Assembly: GCF_003610995.1 (NCBI RefSeq)
Contig: NZ_CP032543.1
Location: 248,001 to 312,000, forward strand
Source of the DNA: Streptomyces griseus subsp. griseus
Lineage (GTDB): Bacteria > Actinomycetota > Actinomycetes > Streptomycetales > Streptomycetaceae
Length of the DNA: 64,000 nucleotides
Reading direction: 5' to 3'
Under the pieces are notes generated by a model, which worked only from the letters and a program-made list of their open reading frames with translations, made no database searches and was not told the origin of the DNA. Position 1 is the stretch's first letter; the number at the start of each line of letters is the position of its first letter. A program made the translations under genes and the position numbers. Shown one piece after another: positions 1 to 51,875 of this stretch.

Positions 1-3000
1 CCGTCGCCACGCTGGATCTGCTGAGCGACGACGAGGTGCGCGAGGCGACGGCGGGCCGCACCGAGCCGGCCGTCGCCCTGACCGTCCCGCAGACGTTCAC
101 CGCACAGGCCGCGCTGACGCCCGATGCCGTCGCCGTACGCTCCACCCTCGCGGGGACGTTCCGTGGGGCCGGAGCCGGGGCGACGGACGGCGCTGAGGAG
201 GCGGAAGGTGCCGGGGCCACCCTCACCTTCGCCGAGCTGGACGCCGCTTCCGACCGCCTGGCCCACCTCCTGGCCGGGGCCGGGGGCCGGGCGGAGAGCG
301 GTGCCACGGTGGCACTCGCCCTGCCCCGGACCGCCGACATGGTGGTGGCCCTGCTCGCCGTGCTCAAGGCAGGCCTGGTCTGCCAGCCGCTGGACCTCGG
401 CCACCCCGCCGCCCGGACGCTGGCCGTCCTGGAGGACGCCAGGCCGCTCTGTGTCATCGGCACGGCGACCACGCTCGCCGCGTTGCCGCCGCACGGCCTC
501 GCCACCGTCGCACTCGACGCGCCCGCTACGGCCGACGCCCTCGCCGCCTGCCCCGGCGGGCCGCTCCCCACCGGGCCGTCCCTCGGTGATCCCGCCTATC
601 TCATCCACACCTCCGGTTCCACCGGGCGCCCCAAGGGCGTCCTCGTCAGCCATGCCTCGCCGGCCAATCTCGGCGCGGGCCACCTCACCGACCACATCGC
701 CCCGGCCGTCGCCCGCACCGGCCGGGAGCGGCTCAGGGTCGCCCACAGCGCCTCGTTCGCCTTCGACGCCTCCTGGGACCCGCTGCTGTGGATGGTCCAC
801 GGCCATGAGCTGCATCTGCTGGACGACGCCGCCTACCGCGACCCCGCGGTCCTGTCGGCGTACGTCGACAGCCACCGTGTCGACTATCTCGATGTCACCC
901 CCTCCTACGCCGAAGCGCTCATCGCCGAAGGCCTGCTGGACGAGGGGCGCCACCGCCCCGCCCATGTCGTCGTCGGTGGAGAGACCGTGCCCCCGGCCCT
1001 CTGGGAGCGGCTGACCGCCGCCGATGCCGTGCACCCGGTCAACCTCTACGGGCCCACCGAGACGACCGTCGACGCCTACTACTGGCTCCCCGGCACCGCC
1101 ACGGACCGGCCCGAGGGCAGACCCGTGCGGGGATCGCGGGTCTACGTCCTGGACTCCTCCCTGCGTCCCGTGCCCGCCGGGGTGGCCGGTGAGCTGTACG
1201 TCGCCGGGCCCTGTCTGGCCCTCGGCTATCTCGGCCGCCCAGACCTGACGGCCGAGCGGTTCGTCGCCGACCCGTTCGGCCCGCTCCACGGCACCCCCGG
1301 CGGCCGGATGTACCGCACCGGGGACCTGGTGCGCCGCCGGGAGGACCACACCCTTGAGTTCCTGGGCCGCAGCGACGACCAGGTGAAGATCCGCGGCTTC
1401 CGGATCGAACTCGGCGAGATCCGGGCCCGGCTGGCGACCCATCCGCAGGTCACGGCGGCCGCCGTCATCGCCCGGGAGACCGGACACGGCAAGCGGCTGC
1501 TCGCCTACGCGGTCCCGGCGAAGGGTGACACGGGGCTCCCCACCCCCGACGCCCTCCGCGACCACCTGGCCGCCGCCCTGCCCGAGCACATGGTCCCCTC
1601 GACCGTGACCCTGCTGGACGCCCTCCCCCGTACCGCCAACGACAAGCTGGACCACCGCGCCCTGCCCGACCCCGAGCCCCTCTCCCCCGCCATCGGGGCG
1701 GAGGTCGTCGGTGAGAGCGGACCGCACACCGAGATCGTGCGGGGGCTCTACGCCGACGTGCTCGGTATCGCGGAGCCCCCAGCGGCCGAGGCGGGCTTCC
1801 TCGACCTCGGCGGGCACTCCCTGCTCGCCGCCCGGCTCGCCGCCCGCGTCCGCGGGCACTTCGGCGTCCCGTTCTCCATCGCCGACGTCTTCCGCCACTC
1901 CAGCGCCGCGGCCATCGCCGCGCAGGTCCGCGCCCGCAGCGGCGCGGCCACCGCGTCCGTACCCCTCTCCCCGCTCCCCCGCACCGGTCCCCTCCCTCTC
2001 TCTCCGGCCCAGCGGCGGCTCTGGTTCCTCCACCGCCTGGAAGGCCCCAGCCCGACCTACAACATCCCGCTCGTCCTCAGCGTCAGCGGCCCCCTGGACC
2101 GGGACGCGCTCCAGCTCGCCCTGCACGATCTGGTGGACCGTCACGAGACACTGAGAACGGTATATCCACCCACTGACAACGCCCCCGGAGCGGCCGGGGA
2201 CGACGCCCCTCACCAGGTCATTCTTCCGCCGGGCCATGAGGCGGCCCGGCCGGTGCTGCGCCTCGCGGAGCCCGGCAGCGACCTCACCGAGGCCGTGCGG
2301 TACTCCTTCGACCTGGCCGCCGAGCCGCCCCTGCGCACGGTCCTGTTCAGCGACTCCCCCGCTCACCACACCCTGCTCCTGCTGCTCCACCACATCGCGG
2401 GCGACGGCGCGTCCACCACGCCCCTGGCACGCGACCTCGCCACGGCCTACACAGCCCGCCTCAACGACACCGCCCCGGAGTTCGCACCGCCGGCCGGCCA
2501 GTACGTCGACCAGGCCGCCCGGCTCCAAGCGGTCCTGGGCACCCCGGCCGAGCCGACCCCGCTCGCCGAGGCCCAGCTCGCCCACTGGCGCGAGGCGCTG
2601 GCCGGGCTGCCGGACCAGCTGGAGCTGCCCACCGACCGGCCCCGCCCTCCCATCGCCACCTCGGCCGGTGACACCGTGCCGTTCGCCCTGGACGCGGCCA
2701 CGCACGAGGCGCTGCGCCGGCTGGCCCGGGCGCACGGCGCGACGGTCTTCATGACCGTGCAGGCGGGCCTCGCCGCCCTCCTCACCCGGCACGGCTGCGG
2801 CACCGACATCCCGCTCGGCACCCCCGTGGCGGGCCGCGACGACGACACCACGGCCGGGCTCGTCGGCTTCTTCACCAACACCGTGGTCCTGCGCACGGAC
2901 ACCTCGGGCGACCCGGGCTTCGGCGCGCTGCTCGACCGGGTGCGGGCGACGACGCTGGCCGCGTACGAGCACGACGCACTGCCGTTCGACCATCTGGTGG

Positions 3001-9044: not shown

Positions 9045-11402
9045 TCAGACGCGGGTGGCGGCGGAGCGGCCGAGGAGGACCCAGAGCAGGAACGGGCCGC
9101 CGAGGACGGTGGTGACGATGCCGACGGGGAGTTCGACGCCGTCGAAGACGATCCGGCCGAGGGTGTCGGCGGCGACGACGAGGACGGCGCCGGTGAGCAT
9201 CGATCCGACGAGCGGGACCCGCAGGGGGCCGGCGAGCCGGGAGGCGATGACGGGTGAGGCGAGCGCCACGAAGCCGACCGGTCCGCAGATGCCGACCGCG
9301 AGGCCCGCGAGGCCGACGGCGAGCAGCAGGGCGAGGGCGCGGACCCGGCCGGGGGCGGAGCCGAGGGAGGAGGCGGTGGCGTCGTCGAAGCGCAGGACGC
9401 CCAGATGGCGGGCGACGGCGAGGCTGATGGGGACGAGGACGGCGAGGCCGATGAGTACGGGGACGGCGACGGAGTAGCTGCGCCCGTTGAGGCTGCCGGA
9501 GGTCCACACGTACAGCGAGCTCGCGGAGCTGAGGGAGCGGCGGGAGAGGACGACCTGCGTGATCGCGGAGGCCAGGGCGGACATGGCGAGGCCGACGACG
9601 AGGACGCGGTAGCCGCGCCGGCCGAGCCCGCCGGAGACGGTGGTGACGACGATGACCGCGGCCAGGGCACCGATCGGCCCGGCCCACCAGGCGCCGAACG
9701 TTCCGGTGGCGCTGAGGCTGACGGAGAGCAGGACGGCGGCGGTGGCCCCGTCGTTGACACCGAGGAGTTCGGGGGTGGCGAGGCGGTTGCGGGCCAGGGT
9801 CTGGGTGAGGCAGCCCGCGAGGCCGAGGGCGGCGCCCGCCGTGAGCCCGGCGACGATGCGCCCGAGGCGGAAGTTCTGGACGAGCAGGACGTCGAAGCGG
9901 TCGCCCTGGCCGAGGACCGCGCGGAAGGTGCGGGCGACGCTCATGTCGCTCTGGCCCGCGTAGGCGGAGAGGACGACGGCGAGCAGGAGGGCAGCGGCGA
10001 GGGCGAGGGCGGCGAGAGCCGCGCGCCGGGCGACCAGCAGGGAGAGCGGGCCCCGGCGGACGACGAGGGTGTCCGGCGGACGGACGCGTACGGCCCTGGG
10101 GACAAGGCCCTTCGGACGGGGCAGGGCGAGCTTGAAGCGGCGGGGGCGGTCCGGGGCGCGCTCCTCGGTGGCCGGTTCCGTCATACCCATCGAGGCGAGT
10201 TGCTTGGAGCGGACGATGGCGATGAGCACGGGGGCGCCGATGAGGGCGACGATCACGGAGACGGGGGCCTTGAAGGGCCGGGAGACCACGCGGGCGGCGA
10301 CGTCCGAGGCCGCCAGGACGCAGGCGCCGATGAGACCGGCGAGCAGCAGGCGGGCGGCCAGCCGGGTGCCCGCGATGGCGCGGGCGAGGAACCCGGCGAG
10401 GAGGCCGAGGAAGGAGATCGGCCCGGCGAGCGCGACGGCGGAAGCGGTGAGGAGGGTGACGCCGGCGGCGACCACCGTACGGATGACGGGCGGCCGGTGG
10501 CCGAGGCTGCGGGCCAGGTCGTCGCCGAGCGCGAGGGCGGAGAGCGGGCGTGCCACCAGCAGGGCGACGAGGAAGCCGATGGCGAGGACGGGGGCCAGGC
10601 GGCCGAGTTCGCCGAACCCTTCGACTCCGGCGAGGGAGCCGAGCACCCAGAAGCGGAATCGGTCGTAGGTCTCGGCGGAGTTGACGACGATGACGCTGGT
10701 GAGCCCGCCGAAGGTGGCGCCGAGCGCCGCACCGGCGAGCACCAGCCGCATGGGAGAGCCGCCGCCGCGCCGTCCGGAGATGAGGAGGACCAGGCCGCTG
10801 GCGACCACGGCGCCGACGAACGCGCAGACCAGGTAGGCGTAACCGGAATCGAAGCCGAGGAGCGCGATACCCGCGACGACGCCCAGGGACGCACCCGCGT
10901 TGACGCCGAGCAGGCCGGTCTCGGCGAGCGGGTTGCGGGTGACCGCCTGGAGCAGGCACCCGGCCACACCGAGGGCGGCGCCGACGAGCAGTGCGGTGAG
11001 GGTGCGCGGGAGGCGCAGGTCGCCGACGACGAGGGCGAGCCGGGCGTTGTCGCGGGCCCCGTCCCGGTTGAGCAGATAGTCCAGCACCCCGCCGGCGCCG
11101 ACCTCGCCCGCGCCGATGGCGAGGGAGAGGCCGCTGAGCAGCAGGACCGCGACGGTGAGACCGGCGACGGCGAGCGCCACGGTGCGGCCGTCGGCCGAGG
11201 GTGCGCGCGAGGCCGCCTCCGTACCCGCGGATATCTCCGTACCGGGTACGCGCTTAGGTCCGGAGCCGGCTGCCGGAGCGGGTTCCTCCGCTGTGGCGGG
11301 CGGCGTCCCGGCCCTCGCTTCGCTCTCCCCTCCGTCCAACTGGGCGGTAGGGGCGTCATGTTCGGGGGCCGAGGCCGAGGTCCCCGTGCGCGGCATTTGC
11401 AT
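9045..11402 (-). CDS. Fused double FecCD iron-siderophore ABC permease
   Basis: A 785-residue protein carrying two complete FecCD permease halves in one chain, like FhuB. Half 1 (about residues 75-390) and half 2 (about 455-785) each contain the family core G-x-x-LG-x-x-G-C-LxQ-x-x-x-RNPLA or RNRLA-x-P-x-LLGVN and a C-terminal GPIGFVGL-like segment. A Pro/Ala/Glu-rich cytoplasmic extension of about 70 residues precedes the first helix. The start codon (ATG, 11402-11400) touches an iron box, so expression should be iron-repressed; a second in-frame ATG is 6 nt downstream and neither has a clear ribosome-binding site. The cognate binding protein and ATPase are not in the window. Confidence 0.94.
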   Translation of the reverse strand: MQMPRTGTSASAPEHDAPTAQLDGGESEARAGTPPATAEEPAPAAGSGPKRVPGTEISAGTEAASRAPSADGRTVALAVAGLTVAVLLLSGLSLAIGAGEVGAGGVLDYLLNRDGARDNARLALVVGDLRLPRTLTALLVGAALGVAGCLLQAVTRNPLAETGLLGVNAGASLGVVAGIALLGFDSGYAYLVCAFVGAVVASGLVLLISGRRGGGSPMRLVLAGAALGATFGGLTSVIVVNSAETYDRFRFWVLGSLAGVEGFGELGRLAPVLAIGFLVALLVARPLSALALGDDLARSLGHRPPVIRTVVAAGVTLLTASAVALAGPISFLGLLAGFLARAIAGTRLAARLLLAGLIGACVLAASDVAARVVSRPFKAPVSVIVALIGAPVLIAIVRSKQLASMGMTEPATEERAPDRPRRFKLALPRPKGLVPRAVRVRPPDTLVVRRGPLSLLVARRAALAALALAAALLLAVVLSAYAGQSDMSVARTFRAVLGQGDRFDVLLVQNFRLGRIVAGLTAGAALGLAGCLTQTLARNRLATPELLGVNDGATAAVLLSVSLSATGTFGAWWAGPIGALAAVIVVTTVSGGLGRRGYRVLVVGLAMSALASAITQVVLSRRSLSSASSLYVWTSGSLNGRSYSVAVPVLIGLAVLVPISLAVARHLGVLRFDDATASSLGSAPGRVRALALLLAVGLAGLAVGICGPVGFVALASPVIASRLAGPLRVPLVGSMLTGAVLVVAADTLGRIVFDGVELPVGIVTTVLGGPFLLWVLLGRSAATRV

Positions 11403-40362: not shown

Positions 40363-41868
40363 GTGAGCAAGACCTACGCGGGCGCGCGGCTGCGCCGACT
40401 GCGTGAGGAGCGCGGGCTGAGCCAGGCGGAGCTGGCGCGGATACTGGCGATCTCGCCGAGCTACCTCAACCAGATGGAGCACGATTCGCGCCCCCTCACG
40501 GTCCCGGTGCTGCTGCGGCTGACCGAGGCGTTCGGGGTCGACCCCGGCTTCTTCTCGGAGCGGGACACCACCCGGGTGCTGGCCGACCTGCGCGAGGCGC
40601 TCGCCGACGAGGTGGGAGCGGCACGGGTCTCGGCCGCCGAACTGTCCGAGCTGGCCTCCCGGCTGCCGGGCGTCGCGAACGTGCTGCTGGATCTGGGCCG
40701 GCGCAACCAGGCGCTGGCCGGGCGGCTCGCGGAGGCCGCCGAGCTGCGGGGCGGCGGCGGGCCCGATCTGCCGCGCTCACCGCACGAGGAGATCCGCGAG
40801 TTCTTCTACCGGCGGCAGAACTACCTGCACGAGGCGGACCTGACGGCGGAGAGACTGGCCGCGGAGATCGGGGTGCGCCCCGGCGAGGTCGTCACCGCGC
40901 TCGCGGCCCGGCTCACCGAGCGGCACGGGATCAGGTTGGCCACCGCCGACGACCGGCAGGGCCGGGCCGGGAGCGCGTCGGGAGGCCGCCGCCCGGCCCG
41001 GAACGGCGGCGACGAAAGCCGCAGGGGCGCTTCCGGCGGCGCGGGCACGGGCCGGCTGCACCACTTCGACCGGGACGCGCGGGTGCTGTACCTCTCCAGC
41101 CGGCTCCGCCCCGGGCAGCAGGCGTTCCGGATGGCCACCCAGCTGGTGCTGCTCGAGTACGGCGAGGAGATCTCGCGGTTGGCGTCGGAGGACTACGACG
41201 AGGGATCGGCGACCTGGCCACTGGCGCGGATCGGGGTCGCCAACTACTTCGCGGGCGCGCTGATCCTCCCGTACCGCGCCTTCCACACGGCGGCGGAGGA
41301 GGTCCGGTACGACATCGAACGCCTCACCGACCACTTCGGGCTCGGTTACGAGACGGTCTGCCACCGGCTCTCCACGCTCCAGCGGCCCCGGCTGCGCGGG
41401 GTCCCGTTCTCCTTCGTCCGGGTCGACCGGGCGGGGAACATGTCGAAGCGGCAGTCCGCGACCGGGTTCCACTTCTCGCGCGCGGGCGGCACCTGCCCGC
41501 TGTGGAACGTGTACGAGGCGTTCGCCGCCCCGGGCCGCATCCACGTACAGATCGCGTCCATGCCCGACGGGCAGCGCTATCTGTGGACCGCGCGGGCCGT
41601 GACGCGCCACCGGGGCGGCTGGGGCGAGCCCGGCAAGACGTTCGCGATCGGGCTGGGCTGCGAGATCCGGCACGCGGGGCGGCTCGTCTACTCCGACGGC
41701 CTCGACCTGGACAACGCCTCGGCGGCGACGCCGATCGGGATGGGGTGCCGGATCTGCGAGCGGCTGGACTGCCCGCAGCGCGCGGTGCCGCCACTGGGGC
41801 AGCCGCTGGCCATCGACGAGAACAGCAGCACGTTCGTGCCGTACCCGGTGAAGGGGGCGCCCGGGTAG
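40363..41868 (+). CDS. ScfR/RamB-type XRE regulator of short-chain acyl metabolism
   Basis: A 501-residue regulator. GTG 40363 has AAAGGG at 7-nt spacing. Residues 6-62 are an XRE helix-turn-helix (GARLRRLREERGLSQAELARILAISPSYLNQ). A middle IrrE/DUF955-like region lacks a visible HExxH and is interrupted by a Gly/Arg-rich insert (about 203-225). The C-terminal DUF2083-like domain has conserved Cys in GGTCPLW, GLGCEIRH and GMGCRICERLDCPQRA, suggesting metal or Fe-S binding. Such proteins (RamB in Corynebacterium) control glyoxylate, acetate and propionate genes, matching the divergent aceA. Confidence 0.9.
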   Translation: MSKTYAGARLRRLREERGLSQAELARILAISPSYLNQMEHDSRPLTVPVLLRLTEAFGVDPGFFSERDTTRVLADLREALADEVGAARVSAAELSELASRLPGVANVLLDLGRRNQALAGRLAEAAELRGGGGPDLPRSPHEEIREFFYRRQNYLHEADLTAERLAAEIGVRPGEVVTALAARLTERHGIRLATADDRQGRAGSASGGRRPARNGGDESRRGASGGAGTGRLHHFDRDARVLYLSSRLRPGQQAFRMATQLVLLEYGEEISRLASEDYDEGSATWPLARIGVANYFAGALILPYRAFHTAAEEVRYDIERLTDHFGLGYETVCHRLSTLQRPRLRGVPFSFVRVDRAGNMSKRQSATGFHFSRAGGTCPLWNVYEAFAAPGRIHVQIASMPDGQRYLWTARAVTRHRGGWGEPGKTFAIGLGCEIRHAGRLVYSDGLDLDNASAATPIGMGCRICERLDCPQRAVPPLGQPLAIDENSSTFVPYPVKGAPG

Positions 41869-41897: not shown

Positions 41898-43307
41898 TCA
41901 GGAGAAGCGCAGGGCGATCGTGTCGCCCACGCCGATCACCTTGTCACGGGTGGCCCCGGCGAACGCCGAGCCGTCCACGGACACCTTCCAGGTCGCCGAG
42001 CCGGTGTTGGCCTTGCCGTTGACGGAGGTGATGGCGCCCGTCCCGGAGCCGGGGACCACGGAGGTGACGCAGCCGGACGGGGTGGACGCGGTCGACGCGG
42101 CGGCCAGGACGGTGCCGAGGTCGGTCGTGGTGCCGGTGGGGGTGAAGGCGACGTTGCAGACCTTCAGGGTGCCGGTGCCGTCGTCAACGGTGAGCGCCAG
42201 CTTCGTCGCCGTACCGGAGGTGAAGCCGCTCGCCGCGACCCAGGTGGGCGCGCCCGCCGTGACCGGGGTGGGCGGCGCGGCGGTGAAGCCGCCACCGGCG
42301 ACGGCGCGCAGGGCGTCGGTGGAGGAGTAGGCGGACGGGGTGGTGTCCGAGGGCTGGTACTTGAAGCCGCCGGCCGGGTTGAACTGGTTGGCGATCAGGA
42401 AGTCGACCGGGGTCTTGCCCGCCGGGGTGAGGAAGTCACCGGTCTGCGGGTTGATGCCGCAGGCGTTGAGGCCGGAGACCGCCCAGCCGTTGGAGCTGGT
42501 GTTGATGCCGTACACGGCGTTGAACGCGCCGGAGGCGCTGACCAGCTTGCTCTTGAGGAACGCCTTCGCCTGGACGATGTCGGGGTCGGTGTTGGGGACG
42601 CCGGAGACGCAGAGCGCGGCCATCGAGGCGCCCGTCATGTCGATGTCGCCCGGCTTGGCGAGCTCGGTCGCGTTGCCCTCGGCCTTGCTGTAGGTCCAGC
42701 CGCCGTCGTTGTGCTGGTTGGCCCGGACCCGGGTGACGATCTTGTCGACGAGCGCCTGCGGTACGCGCTGGGCGCCCGCCTGGGTTCTGGCGCCGCCCAG
42801 CGCGAGTGCGGCGAAGACCGTCCCGTTGTAGTTGGCGGACGGGCCGAAGTACCCGGCCTCCGCGTTCTGCCAGTAGCCGTAGATGTCGGCGATCAGGTTG
42901 CGTGACGCGGAGACCCGGGCGGGGTCGATCCCGGCGGCGTACGCGTTGAGCGTGCCGCGCTGGTAGTCGGTGACGACGGGCGTAGCGGAGGGCCAGCCGG
43001 GGGTGGCGAGCAGATTGCGGTAGACGGTACGGGCGTTCTTCGTCGCGTCGCCGCCGGGCGTCACGTCCACCGCAGCCGTTCCGGCGGCGGCGAACGCGCT
43101 GAAGGCCCACTCGTTGGAGAGCCCGGAGCCCGCGTACGAACCGTCGGCGGCCTGAAGGGTCTTGAGATACGCCACCCCGTTGGTCTTCGAGGTGGCTATC
43201 TGGGCGGGGGTGGAGGTCGCGGCGGCGGGAAGCGCCGTGAGGACGAGGGCCCCCAAGGCGGCGGGAACCACAAGGCCGATACGGCGGGAGGTGAGAGAAC
43301 GGGGCAT
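41898..43307 (-). CDS. Secreted alpha-toroid + DUF4430 protein, intrinsic-factor-like cobalamin binder
   Basis: A 469-residue exported protein. ATG 43307 has CAGGAG at 7-nt spacing; signal peptide about 1-31. Residues about 35-365 contain prenyltransferase/squalene-cyclase-type repeats (NGVAYLKTLQAADGSYAG, NQHNDGGWTYS, FNPAGGFKYQP), forming an alpha6/alpha6 toroid. Residues about 375-469 are a DUF4430-type beta domain ending in WKVSVDGSAF and GDTIALRFS, with two Cys. Toroid plus DUF4430 is the layout of animal intrinsic factor and transcobalamin. A cobalamin riboswitch on the same strand lies upstream and an ECF transporter nearby, so it most likely captures B12 outside the cell. No anchor is visible. 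Confidence 0.85.
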   Translation of the reverse strand: MPRSLTSRRIGLVVPAALGALVLTALPAAATSTPAQIATSKTNGVAYLKTLQAADGSYAGSGLSNEWAFSAFAAAGTAAVDVTPGGDATKNARTVYRNLLATPGWPSATPVVTDYQRGTLNAYAAGIDPARVSASRNLIADIYGYWQNAEAGYFGPSANYNGTVFAALALGGARTQAGAQRVPQALVDKIVTRVRANQHNDGGWTYSKAEGNATELAKPGDIDMTGASMAALCVSGVPNTDPDIVQAKAFLKSKLVSASGAFNAVYGINTSSNGWAVSGLNACGINPQTGDFLTPAGKTPVDFLIANQFNPAGGFKYQPSDTTPSAYSSTDALRAVAGGGFTAAPPTPVTAGAPTWVAASGFTSGTATKLALTVDDGTGTLKVCNVAFTPTGTTTDLGTVLAAASTASTPSGCVTSVVPGSGTGAITSVNGKANTGSATWKVSVDGSAFAGATRDKVIGVGDTIALRFS

Positions 43308-43404
43308 GTGCCTGCTCCTGGGATGAGGGGCGCACGGCACCGCCCGCCCCCGGATGAGCCCGGGGCGGAGGTGGGTGGCCGGCGCCCGGACGCGTGGGTA
43401 CGGC

Positions 43405-43545
43405 TTGGCCGATACAGCTGCCAGCAGGGCATTCGGGCTCGGGAGCGGCCCCCTGCCGTCCCACACCGCTGCGCGTCAGCCCCGGATTCGCACCGGGTTC
43501 CCCCTCGTGGCAGGCCAGGACGCTACCCGAGGCAGCAGGGGCACG
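43405..43545 (-). promoter_or_regulatory. Cobalamin riboswitch (leftward)
   Basis: Read on the - strand, 43504 to 43469 gives GGGGAACCCGGTGCGAATCC then GGGGCTGACGCGCAGC, the conserved B12-aptamer core, and 43440-43424 gives the B12 box GAGCCCGAATGCCCTGC. A CCTCG/CGAGG stem (43532-43503) closes the 5' side. It precedes the toroid-DUF4430 gene, whose start is about 100 nt downstream. Outer boundaries are approximate. Confidence 0.9.
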
Positions 43546-43591
43546 CCAAGGACGGCAGGGGGCGCGAAGGGCAGGAGACACAGCCCACCTT

Positions 43592-43735
43592 GACGGTCTC
43601 TTCGAGTGCGTGTTCCAATCCGCCTGATAAGCACTCAGCCTCAGGGGAAGCCGGTCGGAATCCGGCGCTGACCCGCAACCGTAGGCCCGCCACCGCGCGG
43701 GCGAGCCGGAATGCCTGGGGCCTGGAATTCCAGCG
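43592..43735 (+). promoter_or_regulatory. Cobalamin riboswitch (rightward)
   Basis: 43644-43683 reads GGGGAAGCCGGTCGGAATCC then GGCGCTGACCCGCAACCGT, and 43703-43718 is the B12 box GAGCCGGAATGCCTGG. GAGTGC (43604-43609) can pair with GCACTC (43631-43636). Downstream are a CTGGAATTCCAG palindrome and a CGCCGT/ACGGCG hairpin that may form the expression platform before the start at 43854. It should repress the surface-protein/ECF operon when cobalamin is plentiful. Confidence 0.92.
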
Positions 43736-43853
43736 AGAAACGCCGTCGCGGACTACGGCGTGGTTCGAACAGCTCCCTGCGGGCGGCCCTTTCACGGCCG
43801 CGTCCAGGTGAGCCGTCCGCCACGCATGGCCCGCCCGGACGACACGAGGGGCC

Positions 43854-46496
43854 GTGGTGGGGACCGCACAGCAACATGACCGGCACACAGCCGGGAAGAG
43901 ACTCCTCTCGCTGTTCTCGGCGGCAGCGGTGACCTTCGCCGCGAGCGTGGCCTTCGTCACCGGGGCGGCTCCGGCGGCCGCCGACCCGATCGAATCGTGC
44001 ACGCCGGCCGTGGGCGCCATCGTGGCGGTGGACTTCGGCCCGTTCGGCGGCGGCGTGGTGCGCGGCTGCGACACCACCCCGACCACCGGGTACGAGCTGC
44101 TGCGCGACGGCGGGTTCACCACGGAGGGCACCCAGCACGACGGGCCCGGCTTCATCTGCCGCATCGGCAACGGCGCGTTCAACTCCGGTACGCGGTACCC
44201 GACTCCGGCCACCGAGGACTGCGTCCTCACCCCGCAGGCCACCGCCTACTGGTCGTACTGGATCGCCTCCCCCGGCCAGGCGAGCTGGTCCTACAGCCCG
44301 CTCGGCGCGATGGACCGCAAGCCCAAGGCGGGCGACGTGGACGCCTGGGTGTTCGGCGGAACGGACGTCGGCGGCACCACCGGCCGGCCCACCTTCACTC
44401 CCGACGACGTACGCGCGGGCGGGGGCGGGACACCCACCCCCTCGGGGACCCCGACGGACGGTCCGGACGTGCCGGTCGGGAAGATCGACGTACCGGCCGC
44501 CGCCCGCTGGGTGACCCAGCAGTTGCACGACGGCAGCCACGTGGTGAACGAGGGCTCCGAGACCCCCGACTACTTCCTGACCACCGAGGCCGCTTACGCA
44601 CTCGCCGCCGCCGGGGGCGGGAGCCCCGCGCTGGACAAGGTGGTGGCGCGCCTCGCCTCCGGCGCCACGGAGTACGCCTACGCGGCGGGCCCGCAGGAGG
44701 CGCCCGACGCCACCGCCGCGGCCCGGCTGGCGCTGGTCGCGGCGATCACGGAGGGCGACCCGCGGAACTTCGGCGGGCACGACCTGCTCGGCGACCTGGA
44801 GAAGAACGTCTGCCAGGCGGGCCCCGGTCCGGGGTGCACGGCCAAGGGCGACTTCCGGGGCGCCTCGTACGGTGACGCCCAGGCGCTGGCCGTACTGGCG
44901 CTGCTGCGCGGCGGGGTCGCGCCGCCGGACGAGACGGTGACCCGGCTGACGCAACTGGTCTGCGAGGACGGCTCGGTGACCAGCATCCTCATCGGGCCGG
45001 GCGAGTTCTGCGACGGCGACCCGATGACCACCGGCCTGGTCGCCCTGGTGCTGGACGAGGCGGGCGGCCACGACACCACCGTCGCCAGGAGCGTCGCATA
45101 CCTGAAGAAGGCGCAGCTGAGGAGCGGTGCGTTCCCCGCGTACAACGGATCCGCTGTCGGCTCCGTCGCGGCCACCGCCTACGCGGCGCAGACGCTGCGC
45201 GCGCTCGGTGAGGTCCGGGCGGCCGACGCGGCGGTCTGGTGGCTGTCGCGGGAGCAACTCGCCGACGGGGGGTTCGGGTTCGACGAGGGGGCGGAGGAAC
45301 CCGCTCTCTACGCGACGGCGCCCGCCGTGCTGGCGGGCAGCTCCACCAGCCTGGTCACCCTGACCACGAAGGTGCCCGAACCCACGGACCCGCCGACCAC
45401 TCCCCCGACCGTTCCGCCCACGACGCCGCCCACCACCCCGCCGACGACGCCTCCGTCCGGTGACGGCCCGGACCTCAAGAAGGGCGTCGCCTACCTCACC
45501 AGCTCCGCCAATCTCCACCAGGGCCGCTACTACACGGCGGGCGGCCCCACCGGGCGGGCCGACTTCGGGCTCACCGTCGACGGCGCCTTCGCGCTCGCCG
45601 CGACCGGCCACGACAACGACGCGCTGCGCACGATCGTCGACTTCCTGGACCGGGGCGGTAAGGACGGCGAAGCCCGTACGGTGCACGACTGGACCAACGC
45701 AGGCTCCGCGCACGCGATGGGCGGCTCCATGGGCAAGGCGGCACTGCTCGCCCAGGTCGTCGAACGGGACCCGCGCGACTTCGGCGGCAAGGACCTGATC
45801 GCCGGCCTGGCCGACGCGGTCTGCACAGCGAAGAGCGCCGCGCCGGACCGGAGTTGCGCCGACAAGGGCTCCTACAGCTACGCGATGTCCGTCTTCGGCC
45901 AGTCCCTCGGCGTCATCGCCCAGGTGCGGGCGGGCGAGACGAAGGCGGCCGAGGCCCCGATCGGCTATCTGGCCGGGCTCCAGCACCCCTCCTCGGGAGC
46001 CTGGCCCAGCCTGGTCCCGCCGACAGGTGACGCGGACGTCGACTCCACCGCGATGGCCGCGATGGCCCTGGACCTGGTCCCCGGCGACGCCCACGCGGCG
46101 GCCGTGGACAAGGCGCTGGCCTGGATCGCCTCGAAGCAGCTCAAGGGCGGCGGCTTCCCGGGCGCGGCGGGCAACTCGGTGAACTCGGCGGCGCTCGCCG
46201 TACAGGGCCTGTCCCTGGACGCCGAGAAGTACGGCAGGCAGATCACGAAGGCGCTGAAGTTCCTCGCCTCGCAGCAGAACACGGACGGCGGCTTCAACGT
46301 GGCCGAGGAAGGGCAGCGGGGCTCCGACCTGCGCGCCTCGACGCAGGCGGTGGGCGGTTCGACCGGCATCTCCTTCGGTGTGCTGACCCGCTCCCTGGCC
46401 GGTACGACGCCGAATCCGGTGCCGACCCCCTCCACCACCCCGGTGATCGTCACGCCCGGGACAGCGCGGGCTCCGCCGGCGGACCGGGCGTCGTGA
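43854..46496 (+). CDS. Secreted multidomain cobalamin-locus protein (beta domain + two alpha-toroids)
   Basis: An 880-residue exported protein; start GTG 43854 (GTG 43857 is better spaced from GAGGG and equally possible). Signal peptide about 1-43. Residues about 45-175 are a Cys-rich beta domain (TTPTTGYELL, HDGPGFICRIG, EDCVLTP, YWSYW, VDAWVFGGT) shared with the 312-residue protein downstream. Then come toroid 1 (about 210-505), a Pro/Thr linker (507-539) and toroid 2 (about 540-855; GGGFPG, DGGFNV repeats). The frame ends in an atypical tail (TARAPPADRAS), while the adjacent frame encodes an LAxTG wall anchor, so a single-base deletion near 46405-46462 is suspected. Under the rightward cobalamin riboswitch. 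Confidence 0.85.
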   Translation: MVGTAQQHDRHTAGKRLLSLFSAAAVTFAASVAFVTGAAPAAADPIESCTPAVGAIVAVDFGPFGGGVVRGCDTTPTTGYELLRDGGFTTEGTQHDGPGFICRIGNGAFNSGTRYPTPATEDCVLTPQATAYWSYWIASPGQASWSYSPLGAMDRKPKAGDVDAWVFGGTDVGGTTGRPTFTPDDVRAGGGGTPTPSGTPTDGPDVPVGKIDVPAAARWVTQQLHDGSHVVNEGSETPDYFLTTEAAYALAAAGGGSPALDKVVARLASGATEYAYAAGPQEAPDATAAARLALVAAITEGDPRNFGGHDLLGDLEKNVCQAGPGPGCTAKGDFRGASYGDAQALAVLALLRGGVAPPDETVTRLTQLVCEDGSVTSILIGPGEFCDGDPMTTGLVALVLDEAGGHDTTVARSVAYLKKAQLRSGAFPAYNGSAVGSVAATAYAAQTLRALGEVRAADAAVWWLSREQLADGGFGFDEGAEEPALYATAPAVLAGSSTSLVTLTTKVPEPTDPPTTPPTVPPTTPPTTPPTTPPSGDGPDLKKGVAYLTSSANLHQGRYYTAGGPTGRADFGLTVDGAFALAATGHDNDALRTIVDFLDRGGKDGEARTVHDWTNAGSAHAMGGSMGKAALLAQVVERDPRDFGGKDLIAGLADAVCTAKSAAPDRSCADKGSYSYAMSVFGQSLGVIAQVRAGETKAAEAPIGYLAGLQHPSSGAWPSLVPPTGDADVDSTAMAAMALDLVPGDAHAAAVDKALAWIASKQLKGGGFPGAAGNSVNSAALAVQGLSLDAEKYGRQITKALKFLASQQNTDGGFNVAEEGQRGSDLRASTQAVGGSTGISFGVLTRSLAGTTPNPVPTPSTTPVIVTPGTARAPPADRAS

Positions 46497-46651
46497 ACGC
46501 GGGCGGTCCGGGCAGTGGCGGTGGTGGTCTCGCCTCGACGGGTGGGCAGGCGCTGGGCCTCGCCGCGGCGGCCGCCGTACTCGTCCTGGCGGGCTGGGGC
46601 GCGGTCGTGGCCACGCGCAAGCGGCGTACGGCCGTGGGCGGTGACCTGTGA
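46493..46651 (+). CDS. LAxTG sortase-anchor tail, probably the true C-terminus of the preceding protein
   Basis: From GTG 46493 (overlapping the previous stop) a 52-codon frame encodes a Gly-rich linker, LASTG, a hydrophobic helix (ALGLAAAAAVLVLAGWGAVV) and RKRR: a complete sortase sorting signal of the LAxTG kind used for Streptomyces chaplins. The same frame is open further upstream and reads DSAGSAGGPGVVNAGGPG. Its stop overlaps the next gene's start (GTGA). A freestanding 52-residue anchor with no signal peptide makes little sense, so it is best read as the frame-shifted 3' end of the toroid protein gene. Confidence 0.75.
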   Translation: MNAGGPGSGGGGLASTGGQALGLAAAAAVLVLAGWGAVVATRKRRTAVGGDL

Positions 46652-47586
46652 GGTCCCGTCTCCGCCGGGCGGTCGGCCATGCCCTGGCCGTACTCGGCCT
46701 GACGGGCGCGGCGTTCCTCGCACCCGCCTCCCCGGCAGCGGCGGCCCCGCAGCCGATCGGCCGGTGCACGACCTCCTCGGGCGTCGTCCTGGCCGTCGAC
46801 TTCAGCCACTGGGGCGGTCCCGTCTACCGCTCCTGCGGTACGACGCCGACCACGGGCTACGAGCTGCTCAACCAGGGCGGCTGGCAGACCACCGGCACCG
46901 GGCACGACGGGCCGGCGTTCATCTGCCGGATCGGGTACAGCGGCCACCAGGGCGGCAAGCAGTACCCGCCGCCCCAGCAGGAGGACTGCGTCCTCACCCC
47001 GCCCGCCTCCGCCTACTGGTCGTACTGGCACGCCGACCCCGGGGAGAACACCTGGGAGTACAGCCAGCTCGGGGCCATGAGCTACAAGCCCCGGCCGGGC
47101 AGCGTGGACCTGTGGATCTTCGGCGGGACGAACATCGAGGGCACGAAGGGCCGCCCGACGCTCACACCGAACCAGCTGCGCGCCCGCAACTCCCGCCCCA
47201 CAGGCGGCGATCCGGCACCGCAGCCGAAGCCGAAGCCCGATCCCGTACGGACGACTCCGCAGCAGCCGGCTGGGGGTGGCCAGGCTCCGCCGCCCGCGGC
47301 GCCGTCGGAGACGGCGGCGGCGTCCCCTTCGCCGTCCCCCTCCGCGAGCGCGTCCCCGTCCGCCTCCGCCTCCCCCAGTGCCTCTGCCTCGGCCCCGGTC
47401 TCCGCGTCGCCGAGTGAGGTGGTGGCGGCACCGGGCGGTGCGGCGAAGGTGGTGGACGCGGCACCGGCGCCGGACGCCGGGCACGACTCCGGCTCGGTGG
47501 TGCCCGTCGCGGCGACGGCCGGTCTCGTGGCGGTGATCGGCGGCGCGGCCGTGTTCGCCGCGAAACGCCGCCGCCGTGGGGAGTAG
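46648..47586 (+). CDS. Membrane-anchored surface protein with the same beta domain
   Basis: A 312-residue exported protein. GTG 46648 overlaps the LAxTG frame's stop. Signal peptide about 1-35. Residues about 38-172 are the Cys-rich beta domain also found at the N-terminus of the 880-residue protein, with matching TTPTTGYELL, HDGPAFICRIG, EDCVLTP, YWSYW and VDLWIFGGT. A Pro-rich then Ser/Ala-rich linker (about 180-265) spans the wall, followed by one C-terminal helix (about 284-305) and RRRR, without an LPxTG box. It may hand cobalamin from the wall-anchored binder to the membrane transporter; that role is inferred. Confidence 0.85.
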   Translation: MRSRLRRAVGHALAVLGLTGAAFLAPASPAAAAPQPIGRCTTSSGVVLAVDFSHWGGPVYRSCGTTPTTGYELLNQGGWQTTGTGHDGPAFICRIGYSGHQGGKQYPPPQQEDCVLTPPASAYWSYWHADPGENTWEYSQLGAMSYKPRPGSVDLWIFGGTNIEGTKGRPTLTPNQLRARNSRPTGGDPAPQPKPKPDPVRTTPQQPAGGGQAPPPAAPSETAAASPSPSPSASASPSASASPSASASAPVSASPSEVVAAPGGAAKVVDAAPAPDAGHDSGSVVPVAATAGLVAVIGGAAVFAAKRRRRGE

Positions 47587-47593
47587 CGCCCGC

Positions 47594-48838
47594 GTGCCGC
47601 GTACCGCTGCCGTGAAAGCCGGCCCGGCCGGGAGAGGCGGCACGCCGGTGTCCGCCCCCGGGCCGGACACCGGCGGCAGGCGGCTTCCGCCGGTGTCCGC
47701 CCCCGGGCCGGACACCGGCGGCAGGCGGCTTCCGCGCACCCTGCATCCGCTCGCCTGGTGGATCTGGGCGCTCGCTCTGGCCACCGCCGTCAGCCGGACC
47801 AACAACCCGCTGCTGCTCTTCCTGGTGCTGGCGGTGCTCGGTTACGTCATCACCATGCGGCGCACCGAGGCCCCGTGGGCGCGCGGCTTCAAGTACTACC
47901 TCTGTCTGGCGCTGACGGTCGTCGCGATCAGGGTGGTCTTCCGGGCCGTCTTCGCCACCGGGATGCGGCCGACCGACCACCACCTCTTCTCGCTCCCGCA
48001 CATTCCGACGCCGGACTGGTACGCGGGCATCCAGCTCGGCGGCCCGGTCTCCCTGGAGGCGCTGCTGTCGGCCGCAACGGACGGCCTGCGGCTCGCCTGC
48101 ATGCTGTGCTGCATCGGCGCGGCGAACACGCTCGCCAACCCGAAGCGGGCGCTGCGCGTGCTGCCGGGCGCGCTGTACGAACTCGGCGTCGCCGTGACGG
48201 TCTCGATCAGCGTCGCCCCTCAACTGGTCCAGAGCGTGCAGCGGGTGGCGCGCGCCCGTCGTCTGCGGGCCGGGCGCAACAAGGGGTTGAAGGCGCTGCG
48301 GGGCATCGTCGTGCCGGTGCTGGAGGACGCGTTGGAGCGGTCGCTGCGGCTCGCCGCGGCGATGGATTCGCGCGGTTACGGGCGGGCGGGTTCGGCGACG
48401 CGTGGCTCGCGCCGTCTGACCGGGGCGCTGATGCTGCTGGGGATGTGCGGGCTCTGCGCCGGGGCGTACGGGCTCCTCGACCCGACCGCGCCCAAGCTGC
48501 TCGGGCTGCCCGCGCTGGCGGCCGGTTCGGTGCTCTGCCTGGCCGGGCTGCGGCTCGGCGGGCGCCGGGTGACACGGACGACGTACCGGCCCGATCCCTG
48601 GCGGTTCGCGGAGTGGGCGGTGGCGTCCTGCGGGGTGCTGTCGGCGGTGCTGCTGTTCGTCAACGTGGGTTACGACCCGGCCGCGTTGAACCCGTCCATC
48701 TATCCCCTCAGCTGGCCGACGCTGCCGCTCGTCCCGGCCGCCGCCATCCTGCTCGCCGGGGCGGCCGGATTCCTGGCCCCGCCGCCGAGCAGGCCACTCC
48801 CGTACGTCTCCGCACCGCGCACCGAGGAAGCCGCATGA
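47594..48838 (+). CDS. ECF transporter T component (EcfT/CbiQ family)
   Basis: A 414-residue membrane protein. Start uncertain: GTG 47594 (GGGGAG 10 nt upstream) is chosen over GTG 47576 and GTG 47649. A 35-residue N-terminal stretch holds two copies of a 15-residue repeat, then helices begin at LHPLAWWIWALALA. The EcfT coupling motifs appear as RARRLRAGRNK and AMDSRGYGR (ARG-type boxes that contact the ATPases). A further set of C-terminal helices is present. Its stop overlaps the ATPase gene (ATGA). Confidence 0.9.
   Translation: MPRTAAVKAGPAGRGGTPVSAPGPDTGGRRLPPVSAPGPDTGGRRLPRTLHPLAWWIWALALATAVSRTNNPLLLFLVLAVLGYVITMRRTEAPWARGFKYYLCLALTVVAIRVVFRAVFATGMRPTDHHLFSLPHIPTPDWYAGIQLGGPVSLEALLSAATDGLRLACMLCCIGAANTLANPKRALRVLPGALYELGVAVTVSISVAPQLVQSVQRVARARRLRAGRNKGLKALRGIVVPVLEDALERSLRLAAAMDSRGYGRAGSATRGSRRLTGALMLLGMCGLCAGAYGLLDPTAPKLLGLPALAAGSVLCLAGLRLGGRRVTRTTYRPDPWRFAEWAVASCGVLSAVLLFVNVGYDPAALNPSIYPLSWPTLPLVPAAAILLAGAAGFLAPPPSRPLPYVSAPRTEEAA
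47644..47733 (+). repeat. Two tandem 45-bp units, each containing a palindrome, in the EcfT 5' end
   Basis: The unit begins at 47644 and again at 47689, giving VSAPGPDTGGRRLPP then VSAPGPDTGGRRLP. Each unit includes CCGGTGTCCG and its complement CGGACACCGG separated by a C/G-rich spacer, so it can form a hairpin. The period is a multiple of 3 and the frame stays open. Confidence 0.88.
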
Positions 48839-50505
48839 TCACCTTCGACCAGGTCACCGTCGAGTACGACGGGGCCGCCGAGCCGGTCCTGCGGGAGGTG
48901 AACCTGGAGGTCGAGGAGGGCGAGCTCTGCCTCGTGGTGGGCCATACCGGGGTCGGCAAATCGACACTGCTGGGCGCGGTCAACGGGCTCGTGCCGCACT
49001 TCACGGGCGGCACGCTGTACGGCACGGTCACCGTCGACGGCCGCTCCACCGCCGACCACCCGCCCCGCGAACTGGCCGATGTGGTCGGTGTGGTCGGCCA
49101 GGACCCGCTGGACGGTTTCGTGACGGACACGGTCGAGGAGGAACTCGCCTATGCGATGCAGCAGTTGGCGATCTCTCCGGCGGTGATGCGCAAGCGGGTG
49201 GAGGAGACCCTCGATCTGCTCGGGCTCGCCGATCTGCGCCACCGGGCGCTGTACGAACTCTCCGGCGGGCAGCAGCAGCGCGTGGCCATCGGCTCGGTCC
49301 TCACCGCGCACCCCCGCGTCCTCGTGCTGGACGAGCCGACGTCCGCGCTGGACCCGACGGCGGCGGAGGAGGTCCTGGCCGCGGTGACACGTCTGGTCCA
49401 TGACCTGGGCGTGACGGTGCTGCTGGCCGAGCACCGCCTGGAGCGGGTGGTGCAGTACGCGGACCGGGTCATCCACCTGCCGGGCAACGGCCTCGTGGTC
49501 TCCGGCGCCCCGGCGGACATCTTCACCACGTCGTCGATCGCGCCGCCCATCGTGGAGCTGGGCCGCGCCGCGCGCTGGTCGCCGCTGCCGCTCTCGGTCC
49601 GGGACGCCCGCCGGGCCGCCGCCCCACTGCGCACCGCCCTGGCGGCCACCCCGCCCCCGCCGGTCCGCCCGGTGCCGGAGGAGCGCGGAGCGGCCCTGCT
49701 CACGGCGCGCGGGGTCACGGTGGCGTACCGGGGCGTGGCGGCGGTCCGCGAGGTGGACCTCGATCTGCGGGGCGGCGAGATCACCGCGCTGATGGGCCGC
49801 AACGGATCGGGCAAGTCGTCGCTCCTGTGGGCGCTCCAGGGCTCGGGGCCGCGCAAGTCCGGTACGGTGCTTGTCGATCGGGGGCCCGCGGAGGGCTCGC
49901 GCACCCCGGCGAAGGGCAGCGACCCCAGGAGCCTCTCCGCCGCCGAGGCGAGAACGCTCGTCGGTCTCGTCCCGCAGACCCCGACGGACCTGCTCTACCT
50001 GGAAAGCGTCAGGCAGGAACTCGACCAGGCCGACGCGGAGTCGGCCGCCCCGGACGGCGCGGGCCTCTCCGCCCGCGCGATCCTGGACCGGCTGGCACCG
50101 GGCATCGACGGCGCCACGCACCCACGGGACCTCTCCGAGGGCCAGAAGCTGGCGCTGGTCCTCGCCATCCAGCTGACGGCGGCACCCCGGGTGCTGCTGC
50201 TGGACGAGCCCACCCGGGGACTCGACTACCGGGCGAAGACCCAGCTCATCGCCATGGTCGACGAACTGGCCGCCGAGGGCAGGGCGGTGGTGATCTCCAC
50301 CCACGACGTCGAGTTCGCGGCACGGGCGGCGGACCGGGTGGTCGTGATGGCCGAGGGAGACATCGTCGCGGACGGCCCGACCACCGAAGTGATCGTCGCC
50401 TCCCCTGTGTTCGCCCCGCAGGTGGCGAAGATCCTCGCGCCGCTCCCGTACCTGACGGTCGGTCAAGTCGTCCCCGTGCTTCCGGCCGAGGAGGCGGGCG
50501 CGTGA
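48835..50505 (+). CDS. Fused ECF ATPases (EcfA-EcfA')
   Basis: A 556-residue protein with two ABC ATPases. Half 1 (about 1-240): Walker A GHTGVGKST, Q-loop VVGQDPLDGF, signature LSGGQQQRVAIGSVL, Walker B VLVLDEPTSALD, H-loop AEHRLERV. Half 2 (about 285-535): Walker A GRNGSGKSS, Q-loop LVPQTPTDLLYL, signature LSEGQKLALVLAIQL, Walker B LLLDEPTRGLD, H-loop STHDVEFA. Both are of ECF type. Starts 4 nt inside the EcfT stop and ends 4 nt inside the S-component gene. It powers uptake. Confidence 0.94.
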   Translation: MITFDQVTVEYDGAAEPVLREVNLEVEEGELCLVVGHTGVGKSTLLGAVNGLVPHFTGGTLYGTVTVDGRSTADHPPRELADVVGVVGQDPLDGFVTDTVEEELAYAMQQLAISPAVMRKRVEETLDLLGLADLRHRALYELSGGQQQRVAIGSVLTAHPRVLVLDEPTSALDPTAAEEVLAAVTRLVHDLGVTVLLAEHRLERVVQYADRVIHLPGNGLVVSGAPADIFTTSSIAPPIVELGRAARWSPLPLSVRDARRAAAPLRTALAATPPPPVRPVPEERGAALLTARGVTVAYRGVAAVREVDLDLRGGEITALMGRNGSGKSSLLWALQGSGPRKSGTVLVDRGPAEGSRTPAKGSDPRSLSAAEARTLVGLVPQTPTDLLYLESVRQELDQADAESAAPDGAGLSARAILDRLAPGIDGATHPRDLSEGQKLALVLAIQLTAAPRVLLLDEPTRGLDYRAKTQLIAMVDELAAEGRAVVISTHDVEFAARAADRVVVMAEGDIVADGPTTEVIVASPVFAPQVAKILAPLPYLTVGQVVPVLPAEEAGA

Positions 50506-51356
50506 CAGGACTTCCGCGCCTCACCGACCGCTCGGCCGGTGCCATCCGTATCGGCCCGCGCGCCGGAATCGTCATCGCCCTGGCGGCCTTCCTCGGCCTG
50601 GTCGCGTTCTTCTGGCCGTTCCTGGTCGCGCCGGGACGCCTGGGTGCCGACTACGCCCCACCGCTGATCTTCGGCGTCCTGCTGATCCTCGTCCTCTGCG
50701 TGGTGGTCTCCGAGATCGCCGAGGGCGGCATCAACTCGAAGGCGCTGGCGATGCTCGGGGTGCTCTCCGCCGTCAACGCGGCGCTGCGGCCGCTCGGCGC
50801 GGGCACGGCGGGGATCGAGACGGTCTTCTTCGTCCTGGTCCTGGCGGGCCGCGTCTACGGTCCCGGTTTCGGCTTCACGCTGGGGTGCACCTCGCTCTTC
50901 GCGTCCGCGCTGATCACCGGCGGGGTCGGCCCGTGGATGCCGTACCAGATGTTCGGCTGCGCTTTCGTCGGCATGCTCGCGGGTCTGCTGCCCCGCGCCA
51001 CTGGCCGGCGCGAGGTGTTGATGCTCGCGGTCTACGGTTCACTCTCCGGCTATCTCTTCGGCTTCCTGCTGAACCTGTCCTTCTGGCCGTTCTCGGTCGA
51101 CCCCAACAGCTCCATCGCGTACCTCCCCGGCCTGCCCTTCACCGAGCAGTGGCAGCGCTACCTCGCCTTCGACGTGGCGACGTCGCTGGGCTGGGACACC
51201 GGACGGGCCGTCACGAACTTCCTCTGCATCACGCTGGCCGGCCCGGCCGTGCTCACCACGTTCCGGCGGGCGGCCCGGAAGGCGCGTTTCCGGGCTCCGG
51301 TGCGGTTCGTGGGGCCGAAGGCGGAGGAAGGAACCGGCCGAGCAGGCACGGCGTGA
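50502..51356 (+). CDS. ECF transporter S component, probable cobalamin specificity (CbrT-like)
   Basis: A 284-residue membrane protein with about six to seven helices. GTG 50502 overlaps the ATPase stop (GTGA). Recognisable features are GGINSKALAMLGVLSAVNAALRPLG, GRVYGPGFGFTLG and TGGVGPWMPYQMF, typical of actinobacterial ECF S components found with B12 riboswitches. Last gene of the riboswitch-controlled operon, it should bind the vitamin in the membrane. Substrate is inferred from the riboswitches and toroid proteins, not from the S component alone. Confidence 0.85.
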   Translation: MTGLPRLTDRSAGAIRIGPRAGIVIALAAFLGLVAFFWPFLVAPGRLGADYAPPLIFGVLLILVLCVVVSEIAEGGINSKALAMLGVLSAVNAALRPLGAGTAGIETVFFVLVLAGRVYGPGFGFTLGCTSLFASALITGGVGPWMPYQMFGCAFVGMLAGLLPRATGRREVLMLAVYGSLSGYLFGFLLNLSFWPFSVDPNSSIAYLPGLPFTEQWQRYLAFDVATSLGWDTGRAVTNFLCITLAGPAVLTTFRRAARKARFRAPVRFVGPKAEEGTGRAGTA

Positions 51357-51404: not shown

Positions 51405-51875
51405 GTGGAACCACCTCACGATCATCAGAAGGCCACGGACGCCTCCCGCTACCGCGCGGAGCTGAGGCGCGTGCTGGACACGGTCTCACCGGACGTGGCC
51501 CGACGGCTCGCGGCGATCCGCGACACCGCCACGGAACGGACCGACGGGGTCGTCATCGACGTGTTCCCCGATCAGGACGGCGAAGGCACGTTCGCCGTCT
51601 GGGCGCGGTTCGAGGGCAGCGACGCCTTCGTACTGGACCGGCGGCTCGGGGACGACCGCCAGCTCCTCGCGGTCGTCCACTCCGAGACCGGCTGGACGCC
51701 CCCCGTACCGGACCGGCCCGCCTCCTGGTCCACCGCGCGCCTCGGGGACGTCCTGTTCGATGTCGTCGCCGAGTGGATCGACGCGCTCGTCCCGCCCGAC
51801 GGCACCGGCCTGTTCTGGGAGGTCACCGCACCGGACGGCACCCAGGAGCGCCGCCCGGTGGGGCCGGGCCGCTGA
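51405..51875 (+). CDS. Small hypothetical protein, probably leaderless
   Basis: A 156-residue soluble acidic protein of unknown function, no signal peptide or membrane helix. The middle contains VIDVFPDQDGEGTFAVWARFEGSDAFVLDRR and the C-terminal part LGDVLFDVVAEWIDAL. I do not recognise the family with confidence. TATTCT (51393-51398) lies 6 nt before GTG 51405 with no Shine-Dalgarno, the arrangement of a leaderless message. It seems unlinked to the ECF operon. Confidence 0.72.
   Translation: MEPPHDHQKATDASRYRAELRRVLDTVSPDVARRLAAIRDTATERTDGVVIDVFPDQDGEGTFAVWARFEGSDAFVLDRRLGDDRQLLAVVHSETGWTPPVPDRPASWSTARLGDVLFDVVAEWIDALVPPDGTGLFWEVTAPDGTQERRPVGPGR

Follow-up and report, generated by a model that had tools for sequence, protein, structure and literature searches.

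Vitamin B12 uptake by energy-coupling factor (ECF) transporters and capture of the vitamin by dedicated binding proteins are both known. In the portions of the literature used here, ECF-CbrT of Lactobacillus delbrueckii is a proven vitamin B12 ECF transporter (PMC5997447), an ECF module behind cobalamin riboswitches has already been proposed as a cobalamin transporter of acI actinobacteria, in genomes without B12 synthesis (PMC5301498), and BtuG and BtuH are surface B12-binding lipoproteins of Bacteroides (PMC6143338, PMC8941943). The human B12 carriers intrinsic factor, transcobalamin and haptocorrin are secreted chains in which an alpha-toroid is followed by a beta domain. A further point of comparison is the gene order toroid protein, beta protein, EcfT, fused EcfA–EcfA′ (EcfAA′) and S component of the SCO2321/SCO2322 families (NF053823 and NF040672), whose names give no function. 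We analysed a 64,000-nucleotide stretch of the 7.24 Mb genome of Streptomyces griseus subsp. griseus (the window; positions 248,001 to 312,000 of contig NZ_CP032543.1, G000:C1:248001-312000) and find in it a gene cluster that is probably a corrinoid (vitamin B12) acquisition system. It combines an ECF importer with extracellular proteins, one of which, tor1, has the layout of the human carriers at the level of the predicted fold.

Like ECF-CbrT, the cluster has an ECF-type importer with a dedicated S component, but it differs in that EcfA and EcfA′ form a single fused protein, genes for extracellular proteins accompany the operon and the S component has no credible match among PDB chains. Its surface proteins would capture B12 for uptake as BtuG and BtuH do; those lipoproteins have folds unrelated to the ones found here and serve TonB-dependent outer-membrane uptake. 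The position of the ECF genes behind cobalamin riboswitches is shared with the acI module, and the relevant parts of that account make no mention of beta-domain or toroid proteins. In contrast to the human carriers, tor1 is bacterial, lies beside an ECF importer and has no match to Pfam Cobalamin_bind (PF01122), and its B12 binding is a prediction. The window proteins score below the SCO2321/SCO2322 cut-offs (126.9 of 300 and 21.2 of 85), and the beta segments are swapped in the operon of that type found elsewhere in the same genome (L027). The open-access literature, at the level of titles, beginnings of abstracts and some passages, yielded no report of intrinsic-factor-like, toroid or beta-domain proteins with a B12 ECF system. 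Within that coverage, the comparison suggests that cobalamin-riboswitch ECF modules are known and that the intrinsic-factor-like part is apparently new.

In the proposed mechanism, low cellular cobalamin would cause two riboswitches to release tor1 and the surface-protein/ECF operon. As its structure model suggests, tor1 would work like transcobalamin or intrinsic factor, with cobalamin held between toroid and beta domain. The sortase-anchored and membrane-anchored proteins would enrich the vitamin at the cell and deliver it to the S component for import driven by EcfT and EcfAA′. Comparative genomics gives good support to corrinoid uptake by the ECF module, and we think that the most likely role of the extracellular proteins is to capture cobalamin and hand it over to the S component, with tor1 acting like transcobalamin. 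We infer riboswitch action, B12 binding by each ectodomain, the specificity of the S component (cobalamin versus cobinamide or other cobamides) and an ordered relay in which the vitamin would move from the diffusible protein to the wall, the membrane and finally the importer.

Each of the two divergent units sits behind its own cobalamin riboswitch match. The original prediction of two such elements is borne out by Rfam: against RF00174 (gathering cut-off 31.5 bits), the minus-strand element scores 36.2 bits and the plus-strand element 30.4 bits, 1.1 bits below the cut-off. They had been said to flank the units and in fact lie between them. The divergent pair is present in all three relatives scanned with Rfam, some matches again falling just under the cut-off (37.3 and 29.4 bits in L123, from Streptomyces microflavus, 36.9 and 29.9 in L124, 33.8 and 33.5 in L133; the plus-strand members score 29.4, 36.9 and 33.8, respectively). 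The minus-strand core is kept across 14 aligned sequences, the window and 13 relatives chosen by a core pattern. Single-sequence folding energy gave no support for the two elements (z 0.52 and -0.73), and two regular expressions, which missed much that Rfam and profile searches found, were used as guides only. In L133 (Streptomyces antioxidans), two more strong cobalamin riboswitches flank the cassette, at 10902-11075(+) and 824-950(-), with 94.1 and 89.5 bits; the gene behind the plus-strand one resembles an aldehyde dehydrogenase by eye.

The association of riboswitch and importer extends across a class-level sample of 158 genomes, 87 of which have the S component. We examined 60 S loci of this sample and selected 40 of their genomes (out of the 87 with the S component), none belonging to the window's genus, for a genome-wide RF00174 search. 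A match lies on the operon strand at most 3.3 kb upstream of EcfT in 35 of the 40 genomes and in 15 of 18 families, and 31 of these 35 genomes are without cobM. For the remaining five, the contig starts just upstream in G060, G008 and G004, and no RF00174 match is present anywhere in G002, G094 and G004. Exactly one RF00174 match occurs in 22 of the 40 genomes, and in 20 of them it is at this operon. In the f25/g25 genus (1.3–1.4 Mb), the sole match stands at this operon in 8/8 genomes, in the order riboswitch, beta protein, EcfT, EcfAA′, S component. These eight have no cobM match and one or two B12-binding-domain matches; a PF02310 search matches 154 of the 158 genomes and does not discriminate. 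The acI ECF module is perhaps of the same family as these loci. Two f25/g76 genomes have one RF00174 match and no S match.

These data also bear on a rival account, in which the ECF module would supply cobalt for making B12, with surface proteins that capture metal or a metallophore; we regard it as very unlikely. It draws on the assignment of EcfT to the CbiQ family and on B12 riboswitches that, in the relevant part of the source, also precede predicted cobalt/nickel transporters (PMC2667541). The window genome, moreover, has cobM, cobF and cbiB. The S component, however, matches PF12822 and not CbiM, the cobalt S component, and it is commoner in genomes without cobM (63/89) than in those with it (24/69): 24 genomes have both, 63 only the S component, 45 only cobM and 26 neither (Fisher p 1.1e-5). 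The 136 genomes with completeness of 90% or more and contamination of 5% or less give 24, 49, 45 and 18 in the same order (p 7.7e-6; S component in 49/67 without cobM and 24/69 with it). Neither table is corrected for phylogeny, and the p-values are optimistic because the sample holds close relatives. We counted cobM as present at a TIGR01465 score of at least 254 bits (69 genomes, 60 of which reach the curated cut-off); the next score, 159.7, is a half-model match at a contig end in G023, and none of the 22 incomplete or contaminated genomes was counted as cobM-positive. Genomes without cobM would have little evident need of cobalt for B12, and cobalt uptake is thought less likely because of this cross-table. 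Taken together, riboswitch synteny, the sole matches in f25/g25 and the cobM table make import of a finished corrinoid the likelier reading, ahead of cobalt import for synthesis.

A scavenging system of this kind had been called notable in Streptomyces, which usually make B12. With the S component in more than half of the class sample, mostly in genomes without cobM, the system is not peculiar to them. The window genome is an exception in this respect, and its owner is probably a B12 maker that also scavenges. Its other RF00174 matches precede metE, cbiB, nrdA and two substrate-binding-protein genes (EitA/F420-0/BtuF group), names that are best family matches, several below cut-off.

The window encodes a full ECF set, as predicted: an EcfT matching CbiQ (E 1.1e-9), a double ABC ATPase and an S component matching ECF_trnsprt at 34.7 bits (cut-off 30.7), and the three occur together in most loci examined. 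No credible sequence or profile match links the S component to solved S components among PDB sequences; S components diverge strongly in sequence. When named genomes were scanned with the S-component profile, the best 80 of 553 confirmed loci were all from Actinomycetota by title, two of them Acidimicrobiia-type metagenome-assembled genomes. In L108, L109, L110 and L111 (f3 and f36 genomes), EcfA and S matches fall in one open reading frame (ORF) of about 1000–1200 residues beside a beta protein, possibly an EcfA–S fusion; RF00174 has no match in G002 and G094 nor, under stricter filters, in G117 and G148.

The substrate could be cobinamide or other cobamides or precursors rather than cobalamin, an alternative that we consider rather unlikely. 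ECF-CbrT carries both cobalamin and cobinamide, according to the pertinent sections of the source (PMC5997447), and a riboswitch match cannot distinguish between them. Nothing decisive speaks against it, and genomes without cobM need either a finished corrinoid or salvage genes.

Turning to the extracellular proteins of the proposed corrinoid system, the intrinsic-factor layout claimed for tor1 is supported at the fold level. The protein has no anchor that we could see by eye and is thus probably secreted. Its toroid gives only sub-cut-off Pfam and NCBIfam matches, and its match to DUF4430 is weak (E 0.13), although 24 of 35 members of the tor1 alignment match DUF4430 (best E 2.1e-4). Compared with PDB structures, the model has 14 matches at E ≤1e-3, its best, and all are transcobalamin, intrinsic factor or haptocorrin chains of human or animal origin. 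They share 11–17% identity with tor1 and support both the toroid and the beta domain. The beta domain also aligns with the isolated human transcobalamin beta domain 5np4 (TMt 0.66, 3.4 Å, E 0.06). The VIA list for tor1 covered residues 2-320 only. Among the window proteins, only tor1 shows, at the fold level, the family layout: a secreted chain in which the alpha-toroid precedes a DUF4430-type beta domain. Of the best 80 of 553 S loci, 15 (Streptomyces, Kitasatospora and Actinacidiphila) encode it divergently from the operon. Among the 158 genomes, only the window's own contains it at E 1e-6; since the S component is present in 87, tor1 occurs sporadically beside a core that is widespread.

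The wall protein is modelled as a beta domain followed by two toroids (mean predicted local distance difference test score, pLDDT, 88.2), and its toroids score over the Pfam cut-offs, in agreement with the two-toroid protein first described. The second, membrane-anchored protein was likewise correctly said to carry the same Cys-rich beta domain, the two domains being 60% identical. The motif LA(S/A)TG, of the LAxTG type that is a sortase substrate signal, is in frame in 16/16 wall-protein relatives. In this strain, the motif, transmembrane segment and basic tail are out of frame with the wall protein: the ORF stops at 46496 because the LASTG–transmembrane tail lies in another frame. The frame change at window positions 46400-46651 could reflect a sequencing error, or the strain may truly have lost the wall anchor.

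The carrier-like reading of tor1 extends to these two proteins only as a proposal. The structural comparison that places B12 carriers first for tor1 ranks terpene cyclases first and transcobalamin 35th for the wall toroids, with GH76-like and epimerase folds also listed; the wall toroids are therefore generic by this test. PF01122 reaches E 0.075 in the wall protein (12.4 of 25 bits). Transcobalamin is absent from the 50 matches of the wall VIA list, which excludes nothing; VIA-align left the beta domain uncovered. The Cys-rich beta domain has no significant similarity to DUF4430 in Pfam searches (1/22 members at E 0.2, then 0/41) or by hhalign (0.1%), and PDB sequences provide no link between them; features in common (I-x-G ... 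YW) were seen by eye, with no significant score. No described family matched the Cys-rich domain at a credible score, and precomputed Pfam annotation assigns PF28005 to most of the 120 relatives listed.

The ranking of the wall toroids and the lack of a credible family match for the Cys-rich domain speak for a rival reading, in which the ECF module imports corrinoids and the toroid and beta proteins are merely co-regulated, with another job such as cell-wall glycan binding, adhesion or enzyme activity. We consider this unlikely, given the best matches of tor1 and the company that the beta domain keeps. In searches with profiles seeded partly from the same loci, a beta-domain ORF lies near the S component in 52/60 class-sample loci and in 69 of the best 80 of 553 named-genome loci, the small f25/g25 genomes included. 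The call for a comparative search across actinobacteria is thus answered by a widespread S component with a beta-domain ORF in most loci. Of the eight class-sample loci without one, four are on cut contigs (L064, L071, L074 and L094), L063 also lacks EcfT, and in L065, L098 and L099 the riboswitch stands directly before, or overlaps, the EcfT frame. A terpene-cyclase or glycosidase activity of the toroids appears less likely, as neither toroid protein contains the DXDD motif that characterises class II terpene cyclases.

The segments of the beta domain come in either of two orders: of 57 ORFs (L066–L122), 29 are AB and 28 BA. AB-order profiles recover 27/28 BA proteins, with swapped segments, and match no others among 5045 ORFs than the 57, and the reverse search with BA-order profiles finds only 5/29. 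We read the swap as circular permutation. In the best 80 of 553 named-genome loci, each of the 112 beta ORFs has the AB order, so the permuted form rests on the class-sample loci and L027. Single beta-domain proteins in actinobacteria (P0241, P0242, P0247, P0249, P0250 and P0276) are named 'flagellar hook-length control protein FliK', probably a misannotation.

The features of the cluster are collected in Table 1; a RamB-like regulator gene (40363-41868) borders it on one side and a DUF6389 gene (51405-51875) on the other. The tor1 ORF had been drawn as 41898-43466; the ATG at 43307 is the likelier start.

Table 1. Features of the proposed corrinoid acquisition cluster (window positions)
Feature	Position	Strand	Basis
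tor1, 469 aa: signal peptide, alpha-toroid, C-terminal DUF4430-like beta domain	41898..43307	-	profile matches and model; signal peptide by eye
Cobalamin riboswitch match before tor1	43427..43503	-	RF00174 36.2 bits, over gathering score
Cobalamin riboswitch match before wall/ECF operon	43599..43733	+	RF00174 30.4 bits, E 1.2e-4
Wall protein ORF: signal peptide, Cys-rich beta domain (within 43983-44427), two alpha-toroids	43854..46496	+	Pfam, model
Wall protein tail: LASTG (46529-46543), transmembrane, Arg-rich; other frame	46497..46651	+	comparison with relatives
Membrane-anchored protein: signal peptide, Cys-rich beta domain (within 46753-47184), Pro/Ser-rich stalk, C-terminal transmembrane helix	46648..47586	+	profile; signal peptide, stalk and anchor by eye
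EcfT, transmembrane coupling protein, CbiQ family	47576..48838	+	profile match
Fused EcfA-EcfA′ ATPase, two ABC domains	48835..50505	+	profile match
S component PF12822, proposed corrinoid-specific subunit	50502..51356	+	profile match

We tentatively put forward a wider reading, which is quite possible: that these proteins are an actinobacterial surface counterpart of the vertebrate B12 carriers, in which free, wall-anchored, membrane-anchored and split toroid/beta forms of the intrinsic-factor fold deliver corrinoids to ECF transporters and give them extracellular capture subunits. The animal carriers may then share ancestry with bacterial toroid–DUF4430 proteins. If this is true, the architecture of human intrinsic factor is present in bacteria, these bacteria may capture extracellular B12 in a manner resembling that of the human gut, and ECF transporters, which to our knowledge otherwise rely on the membrane S component alone, have dedicated extracellular capture proteins. 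The cluster also offers a function for the SCO2321 and SCO2322 families and for bacterial DUF4430 proteins, and defines a testable gene set for B12 scavenging in soil and freshwater actinobacteria, most often where cobM is missing.

The operon of the SCO2321–2325 type in the same genome, at G000:C1:1888782-1894456 (L027), is paralogous and encodes a toroid–transmembrane protein, a beta protein of swapped order, EcfT, EcfAA′ and an S component. Neither the core pattern nor Rfam found a riboswitch there. The core pattern hits 3/6 SCO2321-type Streptomyces loci (L027 and L103–L107), and in those chosen after this result for Rfam scanning (L104, L106 and L027) there are sub-threshold cobalamin-clan matches in L104 (RF01689, 33.2 of 36.5 bits) and L106 (RF00174, 30.1 of 31.5). 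The SCO2321-type family may therefore serve corrinoids too.

DUF4430 at the Pfam level (E 1e-3), which tor1 does not reach, occurs in 3/158 genomes, all of the window's genus, and in each a DUF4430 gene stands behind a weak RF00174 match (25.7–27.1 bits). By genomic position, DUF4430 by itself is B12-linked. In the window genome (G000, 116580-117289; L010, L204) and in G039 (L205), it is a separate protein behind sub-cut-off matches of 25.7 and 27.1 bits, respectively. The G089 copy closes an operon that has an RF00174 match (26.9 bits), beta protein, EcfT, EcfAA′, S component and a toroid protein with a sortase-like tail, and a second RF00174 match, at 91.6 bits, points in the opposite direction.
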